Origin: a virus
Direction: 5' to 3' (one strand)
DNA length: 22,636 nucleotides
Virus record (IMG/VR): IMGVR_UViG_3300011113_000252
Span: 1 to 22,636 of that record
The position numbers were made by a program, and so were the translations under genes. Below are positions 218 through 22,636 of this stretch, piece by piece; position 1 is the first letter of the stretch; each line of letters begins with the position of its first letter. The notes beneath the pieces are model-generated. The model saw nothing but the letters and a program-made list of their open reading frames with translations. It ran no database searches and was not told the DNA's origin.

Positions 218-262
218 ATATATAAAAAAGTTTTGTCCCCCTTTTAATAATTTAATAATTTT
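199..262 (-). promoter_or_regulatory. Repeated leader / candidate promoter, copy 1
   Basis: These 64 bases are identical to 618-681. On the coding strand the element has an AT-only stretch, then AAAAGGGGGACAAAAC, then TTTTTTATATATATG, and runs 18 bases into the open frame of the following gene. A perfect copy ahead of two unrelated small genes fits a duplicated promoter plus 5' leader. No obvious Bacteroidota -7 (TAnnTTTG) box is present, so promoter activity is inferred from position and conservation only. Confidence 0.55.
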
Positions 263-636
263 TCTATTATTTTTTCTCTTTTTATTTCTAATAACTCACT
301 CGCAAAAGTATCTAAATCAAATTTTACTTCATCAACACAAATATATTCACATATACCACCATTAAGCCAATTCTCCTCTAAACTACCATTCGCACTCATA
401 AATCTTATAACAACCTCCCAATCATCATAATGTATATACGACACATCCTCATAGGCGTAAACTGGTCTTTTGCCATCATTCGCGAAAATTAAATCATTAA
501 TCTCTAATTCTATACCGGGCAATCTATCCATTACCAAATCAAAAATTAAACTTTTATCCTCACTATTCAAACAACCACCCTCTAATCTACTCAAAATATC
601 TTTCATAACCAATCTTTTTTTTAATTTATATAACAT
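244..636 (-). CDS. Acidic hypothetical protein
   Basis: Unrecognised 130-residue protein. As with the next gene downstream, the first codons (MLYKLK) lie in the shared 64-base leader. The ATG at 606 (MKDILSRLEGG, 120 aa) is a plausible true start. The protein is acidic with mixed alpha/beta character: an amphipathic N-terminal helix, a central aromatic and acidic part (YEDVSYIHYDDWEVVIRF) and a C-terminal helix rich in Lys and Glu (ELLEIKREKIIEKLL). It has three cysteines (CLNSE, then CEYIC) but no spaced metal-binding pattern and no membrane segment. It sits between the structured region upstream and a leader-driven small gene downstream, in a block of small accessory genes. Function unknown. 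Confidence 0.65.
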   Translation of the reverse strand: MLYKLKKRLVMKDILSRLEGGCLNSEDKSLIFDLVMDRLPGIELEINDLIFANDGKRPVYAYEDVSYIHYDDWEVVIRFMSANGSLEENWLNGGICEYICVDEVKFDLDTFASELLEIKREKIIEKLLNY

Positions 637-719: not shown

Positions 720-1010
720 CTAACCCGATCAGATCCTTCTAAAAAACTTGCCGGAACCCTTTTATTAACAGACACTTCTATCCCATGATAGTTATTACAC
801 TACTGGGTCATCTGTTAATAAAGGTCCCGGTCAATAAAACTTGCCGTATACCCCCCCATTAACACGGTGGTCGTCCTTGCCACCGATTGGTTTGTCCACT
901 GTCAACGCTATCGGACGCGCCGCTATACTTGCTTCTCACAAACTTAACACCAAAGCTGGGCTGTGTATAGTATCCCGTAGTAGCCCTCTATAAATTATTA
1001 ACCTACCGTT
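720..1010 (-). ncRNA. Candidate structured non-coding RNA, class unknown
   Basis: This gene-free stretch holds no credible reading frame and is compositionally unlike the rest: 841-960 has 64 G/C in 120 bases, whereas the neighbouring line 241-300 has about 8 in 60. On the minus strand the visible helices are: GGGCT/AGCCC (986-982 with 962-958); a 6-bp hairpin CGGTGG/CCACCG (885-880 with 870-865); and a long imperfect stem (830-811 with 772-751) with about 20 pairs, one G.U and a two-base bulge. The hairpin loop carries GGACG (876-872), which can pair with CGTCC (917-913) as a pseudoknot. The inner part of the long hairpin has further short pairings (CTATC/GATAG, 791-787 with 782-778). CGGCAAGTTTT occurs twice, at 846-836 and 753-743. 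A 3' hairpin GATCT/AGATC follows. No group I or II intron core, tmRNA, RNase P or tRNA signature was recognised. Ends are approximate; it could also be a DNA site or mRNA leader. Confidence 0.5.
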
Positions 1011-1045
1011 AAATTACTTCCGTCATTAATAATCTTTTTATATAT

Positions 1046-10073: not shown

Positions 10074-12476
10074 TTATTGACCTAACACAGCACGATTTTC
10101 TATTACTTCAACTTTATTTTGAACTCTATTTATATCACCAACATAAACTACACTTTTCGGACCTTCACCACCACCAGCACCATTCATTCCCCCTTGACCT
10201 AAACCAAAAAATTGACCCGGGTTAAATTGTGGGACATCACCACCACCTTCGGCACCTCCACCACCGCCTCCACCACCACCACTCGGCACTGATGAACTAT
10301 TAAACGTAGTCGCTTTTATCTTAGCAATTTGAGCACCTGTTGCCGCTAATGATATACCTGTTTGTATAGCCGCCAAAGCAGGACCACCCAACGGAGGTGG
10401 TATTGACATACCATTAAACCATGCAGCAACTGCCGCCTGTAATCCCGAAACAACAGCACCCGCTATTTGAACTTTCTTATTTTGTTCAAATCCCTTTTTC
10501 TGTATCTCAGCCTCCTTAGCACTACCCTTTTCAACTCCCTGTAATTTCATCGCTAATGATGCCTCCTGTATAGCACCAATAGCACCAACAGCATCTGCCG
10601 TCATATTGCCAATCTCATCAATCTTTGCTTTCGTAGCGGCTACTTCCTCGGCATTTCTTTTTCTATCTGCCTCTGCCTGTATATCACTATACTTCTTTTT
10701 AATATCACCAACTGCGATCTGGTATGCCTCCTCTATCTTTAACTTTATATCCGCATTTGACTTTTCATCGAATAACAACTCCTCCTGACGTGCCTTATAT
10801 TCATCATCGGTTATTTTTCCAACCGCTTTTGCTTCATCAATTTCTTTTAATTTTTCTTTAATTGCCGCTGCTTCCTCATCATACTTCATTATTTTTTGAG
10901 CATTCGCAAACTCTAACTGGGCAAGTTCTTTTTCTTGTCCAGCCGCCATCGCATCAATCTCATCTTTTCTCCTTTGTATCCTCGCATCAGCCTCCTCTTT
11001 CGCTATTCTATCCTCCTCAACTTTTCTTTGTTTCTGGAACTTATCAATAATAGCATTTTTATCAACTTCATATTTTTCATCTAATGCTAATTTAGCGGCT
11101 GCTTTTTCCTCAGCACTCGCTTTCATATTATCAATCTCCTCTTTCTGTCTCTTTAAATCAGTTTCTAATCTTAATAATTCTCTCTGCTCCTCATCTTTAA
11201 TTGCCGCTATTTTAGCATCCTCTGTTTTTTGAATAAGATTTTTATTATTCTCAGCAATCTCCTCTGCCGTTTTTGTAGCATCCTCTTTATTCTTTTTTCT
11301 TAATGCCTTTCTTTCATCCTCTGCTTGTTTTTCTATTCTCTGTATTTCAAGTTCATAACCTTGCTGTTCGGATTTAAGTTTGTCAACTTTATCCTTCATT
11401 TCATTATACGCTTTATCTCCATTCGAACGTATTTCCTCTGGATCAAAAAGCAACTTACTTTCCCAATCTAATAAACTTCCCGCTAAATCACTTTCAACAC
11501 CGGGTATTAAATTAGCAATCTCATCAATTGCTGACAATAAAGTAATCAACGGCGCTTGTAGCCACATCAATATACCCTTTAATATCTTTTGATTTCTAAT
11601 TGCAGTATCCTCCTGTGCCTTAGTGTTTTTTCTATTGGCCTCCATCTCCAACTCGACCTTCTTAATAACCTGACCCGTCTGTCTAATCTTAAACTGTAAA
11701 ATCTCTTTTTCACTCTTACCCGCTAATCTCATAGCATTTTCCTGTAAATTGAGGGCCTCTAATTTCTTTTCCTCTCTTTCAGTCGCTTTCTTAGCATCCT
11801 CTGCTTGTTTCTGCATTTCTTTTGAAACACCCGTAGCCGCTGCTTTAATATCATCCCAATAAGCAACTAATAACCCAACTGCTACAACCAAAGCACCTAT
11901 CCCAGTCGCGGCAACAGCACCTCTAATTCCTGTTAAACCCGCCTTAGCACTTTGAAAAAAAGCACCAAAACTTGCTTTCATATTTGTAATCTGATCTGAC
12001 AACCCACCTAAACTTTCAATCGCACTACTTAACCCAGCAACTGCCTGTAATTGAACTAATGTTCTTTGTAAATTTTCACTTTCACCTCCGAAAAGGGCCG
12101 CCGCACTTTGCATCCCCTGAAAACCAGCCATACCAATTTTAGTCGCTGTTCCTAAACCCTTACCTAAGTTTTCACCCGCAGATCCAGCGGTCGCATTAAT
12201 AACCGCATTCGTATCAGCAATCTGGTCTCTTAAAGCACCCGCTTCTCTTGTTAATGAGTTAAACCTTTCAGTCCCGGGTTCTAATCCCTGTAATTCAATC
12301 GTCATAGCCCTCAACTTCTGTTTCAGGTTCTCACTCTTATTACCAGTTTCCTCTATTGACGTATTAGCACTATCCGTAGTTTTCTTTAACTCTTCAAATG
12401 CAGTTTTAACTTCACCAACCGACTTTGCCGACTTAGTGCTATTAATAAATATGTCTATCGCAATCTGTTCCTGCAT
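10074..12476 (-). CDS. Tape measure protein
   Basis: 800 residues, the longest helical protein here. The N-terminus (QEQIAIDIFINSTKSAKSVG) and coiled-coil stretch are typical of tail tape measures. A hydrophobic segment at about 187-206 (AATGIGALVVAVGLLVAYW), a second near 300-325 (LMWLQAPLITLLSAIDEIAN) and a third near 672-725 (AGAVVSGLQAAVAAW, AAIQTGISLAATGAQIAK) would enter the host membrane during DNA delivery. Between them lie long Lys/Glu/Ala coiled coils (about 350-640). A nine-Gly run is followed by QFNPGQFFGLGQGG and a conserved-looking end (VVYVGDINRVQNKVEVIENR). The protein sets tail length and is ejected with the DNA. With the known rule of roughly 0.15 nm per residue it would suggest a tail near 120 nm. 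No separate tail-assembly chaperone pair is visible beside it. Confidence 0.88.
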   Translation of the reverse strand: MQEQIAIDIFINSTKSAKSVGEVKTAFEELKKTTDSANTSIEETGNKSENLKQKLRAMTIELQGLEPGTERFNSLTREAGALRDQIADTNAVINATAGSAGENLGKGLGTATKIGMAGFQGMQSAAALFGGESENLQRTLVQLQAVAGLSSAIESLGGLSDQITNMKASFGAFFQSAKAGLTGIRGAVAATGIGALVVAVGLLVAYWDDIKAAATGVSKEMQKQAEDAKKATEREEKKLEALNLQENAMRLAGKSEKEILQFKIRQTGQVIKKVELEMEANRKNTKAQEDTAIRNQKILKGILMWLQAPLITLLSAIDEIANLIPGVESDLAGSLLDWESKLLFDPEEIRSNGDKAYNEMKDKVDKLKSEQQGYELEIQRIEKQAEDERKALRKKNKEDATKTAEEIAENNKNLIQKTEDAKIAAIKDEEQRELLRLETDLKRQKEEIDNMKASAEEKAAAKLALDEKYEVDKNAIIDKFQKQRKVEEDRIAKEEADARIQRRKDEIDAMAAGQEKELAQLEFANAQKIMKYDEEAAAIKEKLKEIDEAKAVGKITDDEYKARQEELLFDEKSNADIKLKIEEAYQIAVGDIKKKYSDIQAEADRKRNAEEVAATKAKIDEIGNMTADAVGAIGAIQEASLAMKLQGVEKGSAKEAEIQKKGFEQNKKVQIAGAVVSGLQAAVAAWFNGMSIPPPLGGPALAAIQTGISLAATGAQIAKIKATTFNSSSVPSGGGGGGGGGAEGGGDVPQFNPGQFFGLGQGGMNGAGGGEGPKSVVYVGDINRVQNKVEVIENRAVLGQ

Positions 12477-14301: not shown

Positions 14302-16032
14302 TTAAAAACTTTTTCTATACGTAAAAAACCAACCCATATTATTTGATATGGTAATAGTATTTGAACTCAAATCTGTTGGTAAAACACCAGATGTAGAACC
14401 AACACTATTTATAAATGCTTGAAAATATCCACCAGTAGTTAAAAAACCACCACCTATGTGTGGCACTGCAACTGGGTTCAGGGCATATCTTAAATTATGA
14501 CCGGATTGTAATGGTCTATATACCAGCACATATGTATTATTAAACGTATTATTTTTATTTCCAACAAAATTTAACGCACTCATATTAAAATTCCAAACAG
14601 TCGTAGAAACACCAGTATAGTTAAGAGGTATATTACCTAAATCTTGTAATTTAGTTCCCACTCTATATCCAGAATATGTAGAACCACTATTCGACACATT
14701 ACTCTTAACTATATTATAAATTGCTAATGAAACAGTCGCACTCGTAGTCCAATTTGATATATCCCATCTTAATGTCTCTAATTTTTCACCATTATCTAAC
14801 ACAAATGTATTCGCATACATTGTATTCGCGACAACACTAAAACTATTCACCGGATTTGTTGTAAAAGCACCACCCGAGGGTAAATAACCACCACTATCAG
14901 CAGAAAACTGACCACTCCTCCATCCTAAATTATATAATTCAGGCATCGACTGTGTTCCAATCACACTACCACTCGACCCTGATGAACCACTTGAACCACT
15001 ACTACCACTTGAACCACTCGACCCTGATGAACCACTCGATCCTGATGAACCACTCGATCCTGATGTTCCATTAACACCTGACGTGCCACTCGATCCTGAC
15101 GTGCCACTATAAGAAAATATACCTATAAATAAATCATGGTTATTTGAAAAATTCGTTGTTCCTGTTCCACTACTATTAACTAATTGAACTCCTATATCCC
15201 AATAACTCGGTGGACCCGGGTTATTAGCCGGTTGTATATTAATCACCCAAGTTTGATAGTTAGCACTATTGTTTCTATCTTGTATAATAATGGTTTGATT
15301 TAATTGTAAAAGTGCTAAAAACACATCTATATCAAGACCATCATCGGTCATATGTGATATACTTATTTTATTTGAGGCAGTTTGTCCAACCGCGTTCCAT
15401 AAAACATAACCTAAACCGGGATTTCCACTTTGTGATGTAGTATTTGCTCTATATAAAAATAAATTACTACTCTGTCCAGCACTACCCGTAGCACCATTCA
15501 CACCACTTGACCCTGATGAACCACTCGACCCTGACGTTCCACTCGTTCCACTACTACCACTCGTTCCTGACGTTCCTGATGAACCACTCGACCCTGACGT
15601 TCCTGATGATCCTGATGTTCCTGATGATCCTGATAGTCCCGAACTCCCTGATGTCCCTGATGAACCACTACTACCACTCGTTCCTGACATTCCACTCGTT
15701 CCTGACATTCCACTCGTTCCTGACATTCCACTCGTTCCTGACGTTCCACTGGTTCCAGCCGGACCCGTAGCATTTATAACACTAATTGTCCCCCCTGAAA
15801 ATGTTAATCCAAATCCAATATAACCTGAACTAATCAATTCATTTATTTCATTATCGGCTCTATAATAAAATCTATTATCACCAACATTTATTCCAATCTC
15901 ACCATCTGCTAAATCATTCATCGTCCATGGACTTACTATACTTGTAAAATCCTCTTGTGTCGGCACCGAAAACGTAGCACCCGGACTTGTTAATCTATGG
16001 TGTGATATTCTACTATACGAAGTTATTTTCAT
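14302..16032 (-). CDS. Collagen-like tail fibre 2 with conserved C-terminal tip
   Basis: 576 residues in five parts. An N-terminal domain (1-88) carries a DGEIGINVGDNRFYYRAD motif typical of phage fibre attachment regions. A first Gly-X-Y stretch (about 90-186) is made of GTS, GSS and GMS triplets with few prolines. A beta-rich insert (about 187-311) follows, then a second Gly-X-Y stretch (about 312-358). The C-terminal domain (about 359-576) closely resembles that of the fibre at the right edge, with NTMYANTFVLDNGEKLETLRW, STYSGYRVGT, NNTYVLVYRP, PHIGGGFL and LPTDLSS in the same order. Trimeric triple-helix stalks with globular tips are typical of adsorption fibres. An AGAGATTAAAAAA element precedes the start. 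Confidence 0.8.
   Translation of the reverse strand: MKITSYSRISHHRLTSPGATFSVPTQEDFTSIVSPWTMNDLADGEIGINVGDNRFYYRADNEINELISSGYIGFGLTFSGGTISVINATGPAGTSGTSGTSGMSGTSGMSGTSGMSGTSGSSGSSGTSGSSGLSGSSGTSGSSGTSGSSGSSGTSGTSGSSGTSGTSGSSGSSGSSGVNGATGSAGQSSNLFLYRANTTSQSGNPGLGYVLWNAVGQTASNKISISHMTDDGLDIDVFLALLQLNQTIIIQDRNNSANYQTWVINIQPANNPGPPSYWDIGVQLVNSSGTGTTNFSNNHDLFIGIFSYSGTSGSSGTSGVNGTSGSSGSSGSSGSSGSSGSSGSSGSSGSSGSSGSVIGTQSMPELYNLGWRSGQFSADSGGYLPSGGAFTTNPVNSFSVVANTMYANTFVLDNGEKLETLRWDISNWTTSATVSLAIYNIVKSNVSNSGSTYSGYRVGTKLQDLGNIPLNYTGVSTTVWNFNMSALNFVGNKNNTFNNTYVLVYRPLQSGHNLRYALNPVAVPHIGGGFLTTGGYFQAFINSVGSTSGVLPTDLSSNTITISNNMGWFFTYRKSF
15674..15745 (-). repeat. Tandem 18-base repeats in the collagen-like stalk
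   Basis: Four consecutive 18-base units (15674-15691, 15692-15709, 15710-15727, 15728-15745), the last differing by one base, encode Gly-Met-Ser-Gly-Thr-Ser type units. The unit length is a multiple of three, so slippage changes stalk length without loss of frame. Further imperfect 18-base and 9-base units fill 15500-15770 and 14959-15099. Confidence 0.85.
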
Positions 16033-21058: not shown

Positions 21059-22636
21059 CTAAGGCTGTGTCCTTCTATACGTGACCATAAAACCACCATT
21101 CGTAGCAATAGCGATTGCTGTTGAACTTAAATCTGCTGGCAGTGAAACCGAAGTTCCTACATTTTGAATAAATTGTCTATAAAAAAATCCTGACAAAAAT
21201 CCACCACCTATGTGTGGTATAACTATATTTGCCGCTGAGTTCACTAAACTATGACCCGTCCCATTCGGTCTATAAATCAAAACATAAACATTATAAAATG
21301 TATTATTACTATTCGCTGTGTAATTTATATTATTAATTTGATATTCACCAGAAGAACCTATTGTTAAACCAGTAGTAATTGTTAATAATCTTGTTCCAAC
21401 TCTAAAACCTGAATATGTAGCAGAACCTTGAAAAATATTACTTCTTGATAAAGAATATAAACCTATATCTACTGTCTGTGATCCAGTAAAAGCCGGAACC
21501 CTCCATCTTATTGCTTCTAATTTTTCTCCACCATTAATAACCATCGTAGTTGCATATAATGTATTTGCCACAATAGCAAATGAACCCTGTGGATAATCCG
21601 TATATAATCCACCAGACATTAACCAACCACCATCATTTGTTGAAAATGACGACGCTTGCCAAACACCACTCACTTGCGGAGTTATTAACGACTGTGTTCC
21701 AGATAATGCGGCCCCTGATGAACCACTCGATCCACTTGAACCACTCGATCCACTCGATCCACTCGATCCACTCGATCCTGATGAACCACTAACACCAGAT
21801 GTTCCATTAACACCTGACGTGCCATTAACACCTGACGTTCCACTCGTGCCATTAACACCTGACGTTCCTGACGTTCCACTTGTTCCACTTACACCAGATG
21901 TTCCATTAACACCCGACGTCCCACTCGATCCTGACGTTCCACTCGATCCTGATGAACCACTAACACCTGACGTTCCACTCGATCCACTTACACCTGACGT
22001 GCCACTTGTTCCATTAACACCTGACGTGCCATTAACACCCGACGTTCCTGACGTTCCCGCAGCACCAGCAACACCTGTCGCACCAGTCGCACCAGTTGGA
22101 CCCGGAGGACCTATCAATCTAACTTGACTTGTAAAAGCACCTAATGAATATGTATATGCTAATGGTCCCACCATCGGAGCATTACATGGTGAAAATCGCA
22201 TCGGGTATCTCAAAGTTATATCAGCAACCCAACCATTACAATAATCCTTACTAAACTCATAAAGTGGTTCAAACGATATACCATCAGTTAAAGTAATTCC
22301 TAAATCTCTTATTTGCGGGTGTTGAACTATTTGACCTATATACGTTTCTAAAACATACTTACAATCACTTAAACTATCAATATAATTCACATCACCTTTA
22401 TTAACTCTATCTATAACATAAACTCTAAAACTTTGCTCCTCTGTTAAAAAACTCATACTATCAGGACTTTGAAACCATCTCGCAGTTCCTGTTTCAACAT
22501 ACATATACGGAAACCTCGTATCCGCTATTGGGTCTAAATTCCAATCCGGACCCCCAAAATCAAATCCATTTAAAAATAAATGACTTGACCAATATAATTC
22601 AAAAACATTTTTTAAATAATTTATTGTTGGTGTATT
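21059..22636 (-). CDS. Collagen-like tail fibre 1, 5' end cut by the window edge
   Basis: Partial gene. The first ATG in frame is at 22504 (481 aa), but the same frame stays open to the window edge and adds 44 protein-like residues (for example VFELYWSSHLFLNGFDFGGP, then DWNLDPIADTRFPYMYVETG). The true start is therefore outside the window and at least 525 residues are encoded here. The N-terminal part (about 170 residues) has a globular segment (SLSDCKYVLETYIGQIVQHP, PLYEFSKDYCNGWVADITLR, YPMRFSPCNAP) that could be a tail-attachment or tail-terminator-like domain. A Gly-X-Y stalk follows, beginning with a proline-containing GPPGPTGATGATG and then GTS, GSS and GVN triplets. The C-terminal ~210 residues share the tip of the second fibre (ATYSGFRVGTRL, YVLIYRP, PHIGGGFL, LPADLSS). 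It ends in TAG. Confidence 0.8.
   Translation of the reverse strand, partial: NTPTINYLKNVFELYWSSHLFLNGFDFGGPDWNLDPIADTRFPYMYVETGTARWFQSPDSMSFLTEEQSFRVYVIDRVNKGDVNYIDSLSDCKYVLETYIGQIVQHPQIRDLGITLTDGISFEPLYEFSKDYCNGWVADITLRYPMRFSPCNAPMVGPLAYTYSLGAFTSQVRLIGPPGPTGATGATGVAGAAGTSGTSGVNGTSGVNGTSGTSGVSGSSGTSGVSGSSGSSGTSGSSGTSGVNGTSGVSGTSGTSGTSGVNGTSGTSGVNGTSGVNGTSGVSGSSGSSGSSGSSGSSGSSGSSGSSGAALSGTQSLITPQVSGVWQASSFSTNDGGWLMSGGLYTDYPQGSFAIVANTLYATTMVINGGEKLEAIRWRVPAFTGSQTVDIGLYSLSRSNIFQGSATYSGFRVGTRLLTITTGLTIGSSGEYQINNINYTANSNNTFYNVYVLIYRPNGTGHSLVNSAANIVIPHIGGGFLSGFFYRQFIQNVGTSVSLPADLSSTAIAIATNGGFMVTYRRTQP
21741..21776 (-). repeat. Tandem 9-base repeats in fibre 1 stalk
   Basis: Four exact consecutive 9-base units (21741-21749, 21750-21758, 21759-21767, 21768-21776) encoding Gly-Ser-Ser. 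They sit near the C-terminal end of the Gly-X-Y stalk (about 21701-22111), which as a whole is made of imperfect 9- and 18-base units. Confidence 0.85.

Follow-up and report, generated by a model that had tools for sequence, protein, structure and literature searches.

A terminator-like hairpin beside a GC-rich piece in a gene-free interval of an uncultured tailed phage

Results

The window analysed here, i.e., the whole stretch of DNA under study, comprises the 22,636 bases of IMG/VR virus record IMGVR_UViG_3300011113_000252 and derives from an uncultured tailed dsDNA phage. The minus strand carries its substantial genes, whose products include a portal, a capsid-like, a prohead-protease-like and a tape-measure-like protein and two TSG-repeat tail proteins (names not covered by PHROG matches are those we infer). 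Distant matches to the portal occur in phages of Streptomyces and Nonlabens; those in Nonlabens phages, together with AT-rich leaders, are the grounds on which we guess at a host within the Bacteroidota. Searches of IMG/VR with the zinc-ribbon, portal, 200-aa head, 74-aa, downstream-gene and capsid proteins recovered a single relative, IMGVR_UViG_3300034198_010292 (record G001; 31,781 bases), with a portal 66% and a capsid 88% identical to those of the window; no relative of the capsid was found in genome contigs. The record of the relative ends, after the terminase genes, in a tail-fibre gene (L006:3-1658), the counterpart of which (21059-22504) lies at the opposite end of the window. The two records seem to represent a single gene order cut at different points, and the ParB-like, methylase-like and terminase part is therefore probably missing from the window.

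Behind the head genes, between two genes of an accessory block, lies a non-coding gap of 409 nt (637-1045), whose neighbours all share the minus-strand orientation. The upstream gene (1046-1498) encodes a Cys-rich zinc-ribbon-like protein of 150 aa with a weak match to DZR_2, below the Pfam cut-off. Its codon-usage score is unusually weak (z of 1.2 vs. 3.9–7.5 in the other genes tested), and an IMG/VR protein search gave no relative; the gene is probably a recent acquisition. The related phage has a Cys-rich counterpart that is 25% identical. Directly past its stop codon is a TATATAAA box (1037-1044, minus strand), a possible -10-like element. Ten such boxes occur on the coding strand, seven of them shortly before gene starts; the upstream half of the phage promoter motif is not recognisable at this one, which could be a chance occurrence in AT-rich DNA. 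The downstream gene (244-606, minus strand, ATG at 606) encodes 120 aa, has no assigned function, and its protein found no relative in Pfam, PHROGs or IMG/VR. It is preceded by a promoter-like GACAAAAC-N16-TATATAAA element (656-625) that recurs in the window (237-206) and in the related phage, each time with identical letters and the 16-base spacing. More generally, (GA)nAAAAC-N16-TATATAA stands before genes in both phages (656-625 and 237-206 in the window; L003:14739-14770 and 15348-15379 in the relative). Both phages also encode a sigma-like protein (2351-2917; L003:18098-18664) that might read this shared element.

A first-pass annotation had proposed that the minus strand of 720-1010 encodes a new structured RNA with a GC-rich folded core. 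All letters and coordinates on which it drew proved correct, and we likewise found no credible reading frame: the gap holds no minus-strand ORF of at least 50 aa, its six-frame codon-usage scores are low (z of -0.6 to 1.8, vs. 3.9–7.5 in 13 of 14 window genes), and no frame on either strand carries a clear coding signal. Positions 841-960 do contain 64 G+C in 120 bases (53%), a value reached by only 0.8% of the 120-nt segments of the window. This is the sole gene-free peak among four, as the other three GC clusters (10151-10348, 15466-15774 and 21909-22147) all fall within long ORFs. Folded as a whole, 720-1010 reaches a z of only about -1.5 on either strand.

When parts of the interval were folded separately and compared with dinucleotide-preserving shuffles, a long imperfect hairpin with a GC-rich lower part emerged on the minus strand (834-748; z of -4.2). 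Its predicted energy is -36.9 kcal/mol (mean of the shuffles, -22.2), and none of 500 shuffles equalled it. The imperfect stem of the earlier annotation is thus real and larger than described, with pairing that spans 834 to 748, and it lies far beyond the shuffles whichever strand is folded, as expected of an inverted repeat. In a scan of 451 segments of the coding strand, the one holding the hairpin (751-870) tied for second place by z (-3.84). The stem comprises approximately 25 bp, with ACCGGGACC/GGUUCCGG near its GC-rich foot, an AU-rich upper half, a large internal loop and an inner 9-bp hairpin. One base past the hairpin, after a single G, follows a U6 tract (746-741, minus strand) in the geometry of a terminator, and farther downstream lies a small GATCT/AGATC hairpin (735-717, minus strand). 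A stable hairpin with a GC-rich foot and a U-rich tract after the stem, both on the gene strand, are the hallmarks of an intrinsic terminator. Terminator-like sites also occur at other unit borders of the accessory block (2991-2967 and 1542-1515). Given its GC-rich foot and G-U6 sequence, and its location behind the zinc-ribbon gene and before a promoter-like element, the hairpin appears, as judged from sequence, to take the place of a terminator. It is left unlisted by a simple terminator scan, which considers only loops of 3–8 bases.

The GC-rich non-coding piece itself (847-1000, minus strand; hereafter the core) has no significant fold on either strand. On the minus strand its z is +1.2, with 275 of 300 shuffles folding at least as well; strong helices, nested or not, number 25 against 25.1 expected, and the best of them is weaker than the shuffled average. 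The helices CGGTGG/CCACCG (885-880 with 870-865) and GGGCT/AGCCC (986-982 with 962-958) and the pseudoknot pair CGTCC/GGACG (917-913 with 876-872) have their letters in place, but they are at chance level, the possible helices of the core being together as numerous and as strong as chance gives; with a helix inventory that equals chance, such pairs would be expected anyway from a 160-base stretch of like make-up. The postulated folded core is consequently not borne out, the sole significant structure of the interval lying outside the GC-rich part, and nothing in these results supports a GC-rich RNA domain that folds separately. These chance-level results remove the argument for core structure but do not prove the core unstructured, as nested folds and simple helix lists do not reach tertiary structure. 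One loop, CAAGGACG, may resemble CsrA-type GGA loops.

An 11-nt direct repeat, CGGCAAGTTTT, flanks the hairpin as originally described. It is weakly above chance (about 1% of shuffles). The first copy (846-836, minus strand) contains a CGGCAA that can pair with UUGACCG (834-828), rivalling the hairpin base; the second (753-743, minus strand) forms the 3' foot of the hairpin and the start of the U-tract. A fold constrained to the first-copy pairing reaches -31.7 vs. -37.3 kcal/mol, and the competing small hairpin alone -4.1 kcal/mol. CTTGC(C) words, perhaps a binding site, cluster at 747, 840, 876 and 928 on the plus strand. CTTGCC has five copies on the plus strand of the window, three of which (747, 840 and 876) fall within 135 bases, and CTTGC has four copies within 182 nt at the hairpin and GC-rich region. 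Repeated 6-mers exceed the shuffles (28 vs. 13.5 pairs; 0 of 500 shuffles).

Searches for relatives and for known RNA classes gave little. Rfam yielded no useful match at gathering score or at E up to 10, where only one plant-type microRNA model and one snoRNA model appeared, far below their cut-offs; covariance models of known riboswitch aptamers, GOLLD and ROOL did not match. The window contains no tRNA or tmRNA genes. Searches with blastn against phages and plasmids returned either nothing or matches no better than chance, most of which lay in the AT-rich tail, and a DNA search found no copy of the stretch in the related phage. Among 396 Bacteroidota genomes, four gave matches at E ≤ 0.01, which equals chance expectation. 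Exact 15- and 16-mers of the core (IMG/VR; GTDB genomes by 16-mer) produced only short, non-extending matches, the longest of 22 nt in L087 and ending there, in scans of a kind that would miss diverged homologues.

The related phage has an odd non-coding unit of its own (about L003:14770-15345), located between two promoter-like elements and containing a 118-aa ORF with a weak coding signal (z of 2.1) and no family match. Homology of this unit to the window's gap was considered and rejected, the alignment score being at shuffle level. Past the ORF, at 15150-15290, we observed a branched fold (z of -3.9; 0 of 200 shuffles) without an Rfam match, which is a better-supported RNA candidate than 720-1010 of the window.

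Discussion

With moderate confidence, we interpret 637-1045 as the end of a minus-strand transcript, either the 3' tail of an mRNA or a small RNA of approximately 290 nt, stopped by the hairpin. RNA polymerase would either arrive from the zinc-ribbon gene or start behind the box at 1044, then pass the GC-rich piece and stop at the long hairpin (834-748) and its U6 tail. The downstream gene would then start from its own promoter-like element (656-625). The product, a zinc-ribbon mRNA 3' tail or a small phage RNA, as it may be, would be both ended and protected by the stable hairpin. Several observations argue for termination at this site: the z of the hairpin, the G-UUUUUU that follows it, the orientation of the genes, the terminator-like sites at other borders, the repeated promoter-like element downstream and the missing coding signal. 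Against it, the stem is longer than that of a usual terminator and escaped the simple terminator scan. Moreover, a GC-rich piece of approximately 150 nt is more than the 3' tail of an mRNA would require; this piece is left unexplained by the transcript-end model and may have some further role. On balance, the data fit a signal that ends transcription better than they fit an RNA machine.

We consider it unlikely that the interval encodes a discrete structured RNA belonging to a new class, with a compact and perhaps pseudoknotted GC-rich part and, for its 3' domain, the long hairpin. Such an RNA would account for a GC peak in AT-rich, gene-free DNA, for a possible -10-like box of its own at 1044 and for a real hairpin, and the hairpin loop GGACG can pair with the upstream CGTCC. 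However, shuffling the core costs it no folding stability, its helices are those that chance would supply, Rfam offers no match, and no homologue turned up in the phage, plasmid, IMG/VR, GTDB or Bacteroidota searches. According to PMC8250186, structure predicted from one sequence is no evidence of functional RNA structure. A narrower version appears more doubtful still: a phage-specific small RNA of approximately 290 nt that begins at its own box at 1044, ends at the hairpin, is not in Rfam and contains a pseudoknotted GC-rich domain missed by folding scores. The broader proposal, that of a new structured RNA built on a folded GC-rich core, is unsupported rather than disproved.

Nearly as probable as the new class, and likewise improbable, is a DNA element (a replication origin or a protein-binding or regulatory site) in which the inverted repeat and the CTTGC(C) words serve as binding sites without any need for an RNA. 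The CTTGCC/CTTGC cluster at 747, 840 and 876 and the excess of repeated 6-mers would fit such a site, but the words were chosen after the fact, their spacings (93, 36 and 52) are irregular, and transcription better accounts for a U-tract placed exactly at the hairpin's 3' foot. With the direct repeat on either side of the hairpin, a small rival hairpin could form, so that a transcription switch is possible, though not the simplest reading. In such a switch, CGGCAA at 846-841 and at 753-748 would compete for UUGACCG (834-828), the hairpin would form with or without its foot beside the U-tract, and the GC-rich piece would act as a sensor controlling readthrough into the downstream gene. Both pairings can form, with energies 5.6 kcal/mol apart; yet the promoter-like element of the downstream gene sits behind the hairpin, the competing hairpin is weak by itself, and Rfam returned no known sensor at E up to 10. 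We regard this mechanism as very improbable, and we hold equally little confidence in a decayed or foreign insert, the functionless remnant of a higher-GC gene or mobile element. The GC content is unlike that of the genome and the stretch is absent from the only known relative, as such a remnant might be, but comparison of its frames with Pfam, PHROGs, phage proteins and the two phages' own frames gave no match, and the intact hairpin speaks against decay of at least that part.

In sum, the interval is non-coding and contains a single significant hairpin, which is terminator-like; the interval is probably where a transcript ends and possibly encodes a small RNA. If transcribed, it would add one more unassigned small RNA to a poorly sampled phage group, probably of Bacteroidota, and would test whether a GC peak alone marks an RNA gene in an AT-rich phage.

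Compared with known systems, the stretch is phage-borne, non-coding and in an accessory region, as are GOLLD and ROOL. Both classes often have tRNA islands nearby, and many GOLLD RNAs are longer than 800 nt (PMC12286853). In contrast, the candidate described here measures approximately 300 nt at most within a gap of only 409 nt, lies in a window without tRNA genes, and has neither an Rfam match nor covariation-supported helices; the kinship suggested in the first-pass annotation is accordingly not upheld. Like riboswitch and attenuator leaders, it lies upstream of a gene and combines a GC-rich non-coding piece with a terminator-like hairpin behind it, for which an alternative pairing is possible, but it matches no known aptamer, and a promoter-like element intervenes between hairpin and gene. 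With the intrinsic (rho-independent) terminators that end phage small RNAs and mRNA tails it shares a GC-rich stem foot, a U6 tract one base on, sense orientation and a position before the next promoter-like element. Its stem is unusually long for that group (approximately 25 bp, interrupted by an internal loop and enclosing a 9-bp hairpin), and we describe it as a candidate terminator, recognised from its sequence.
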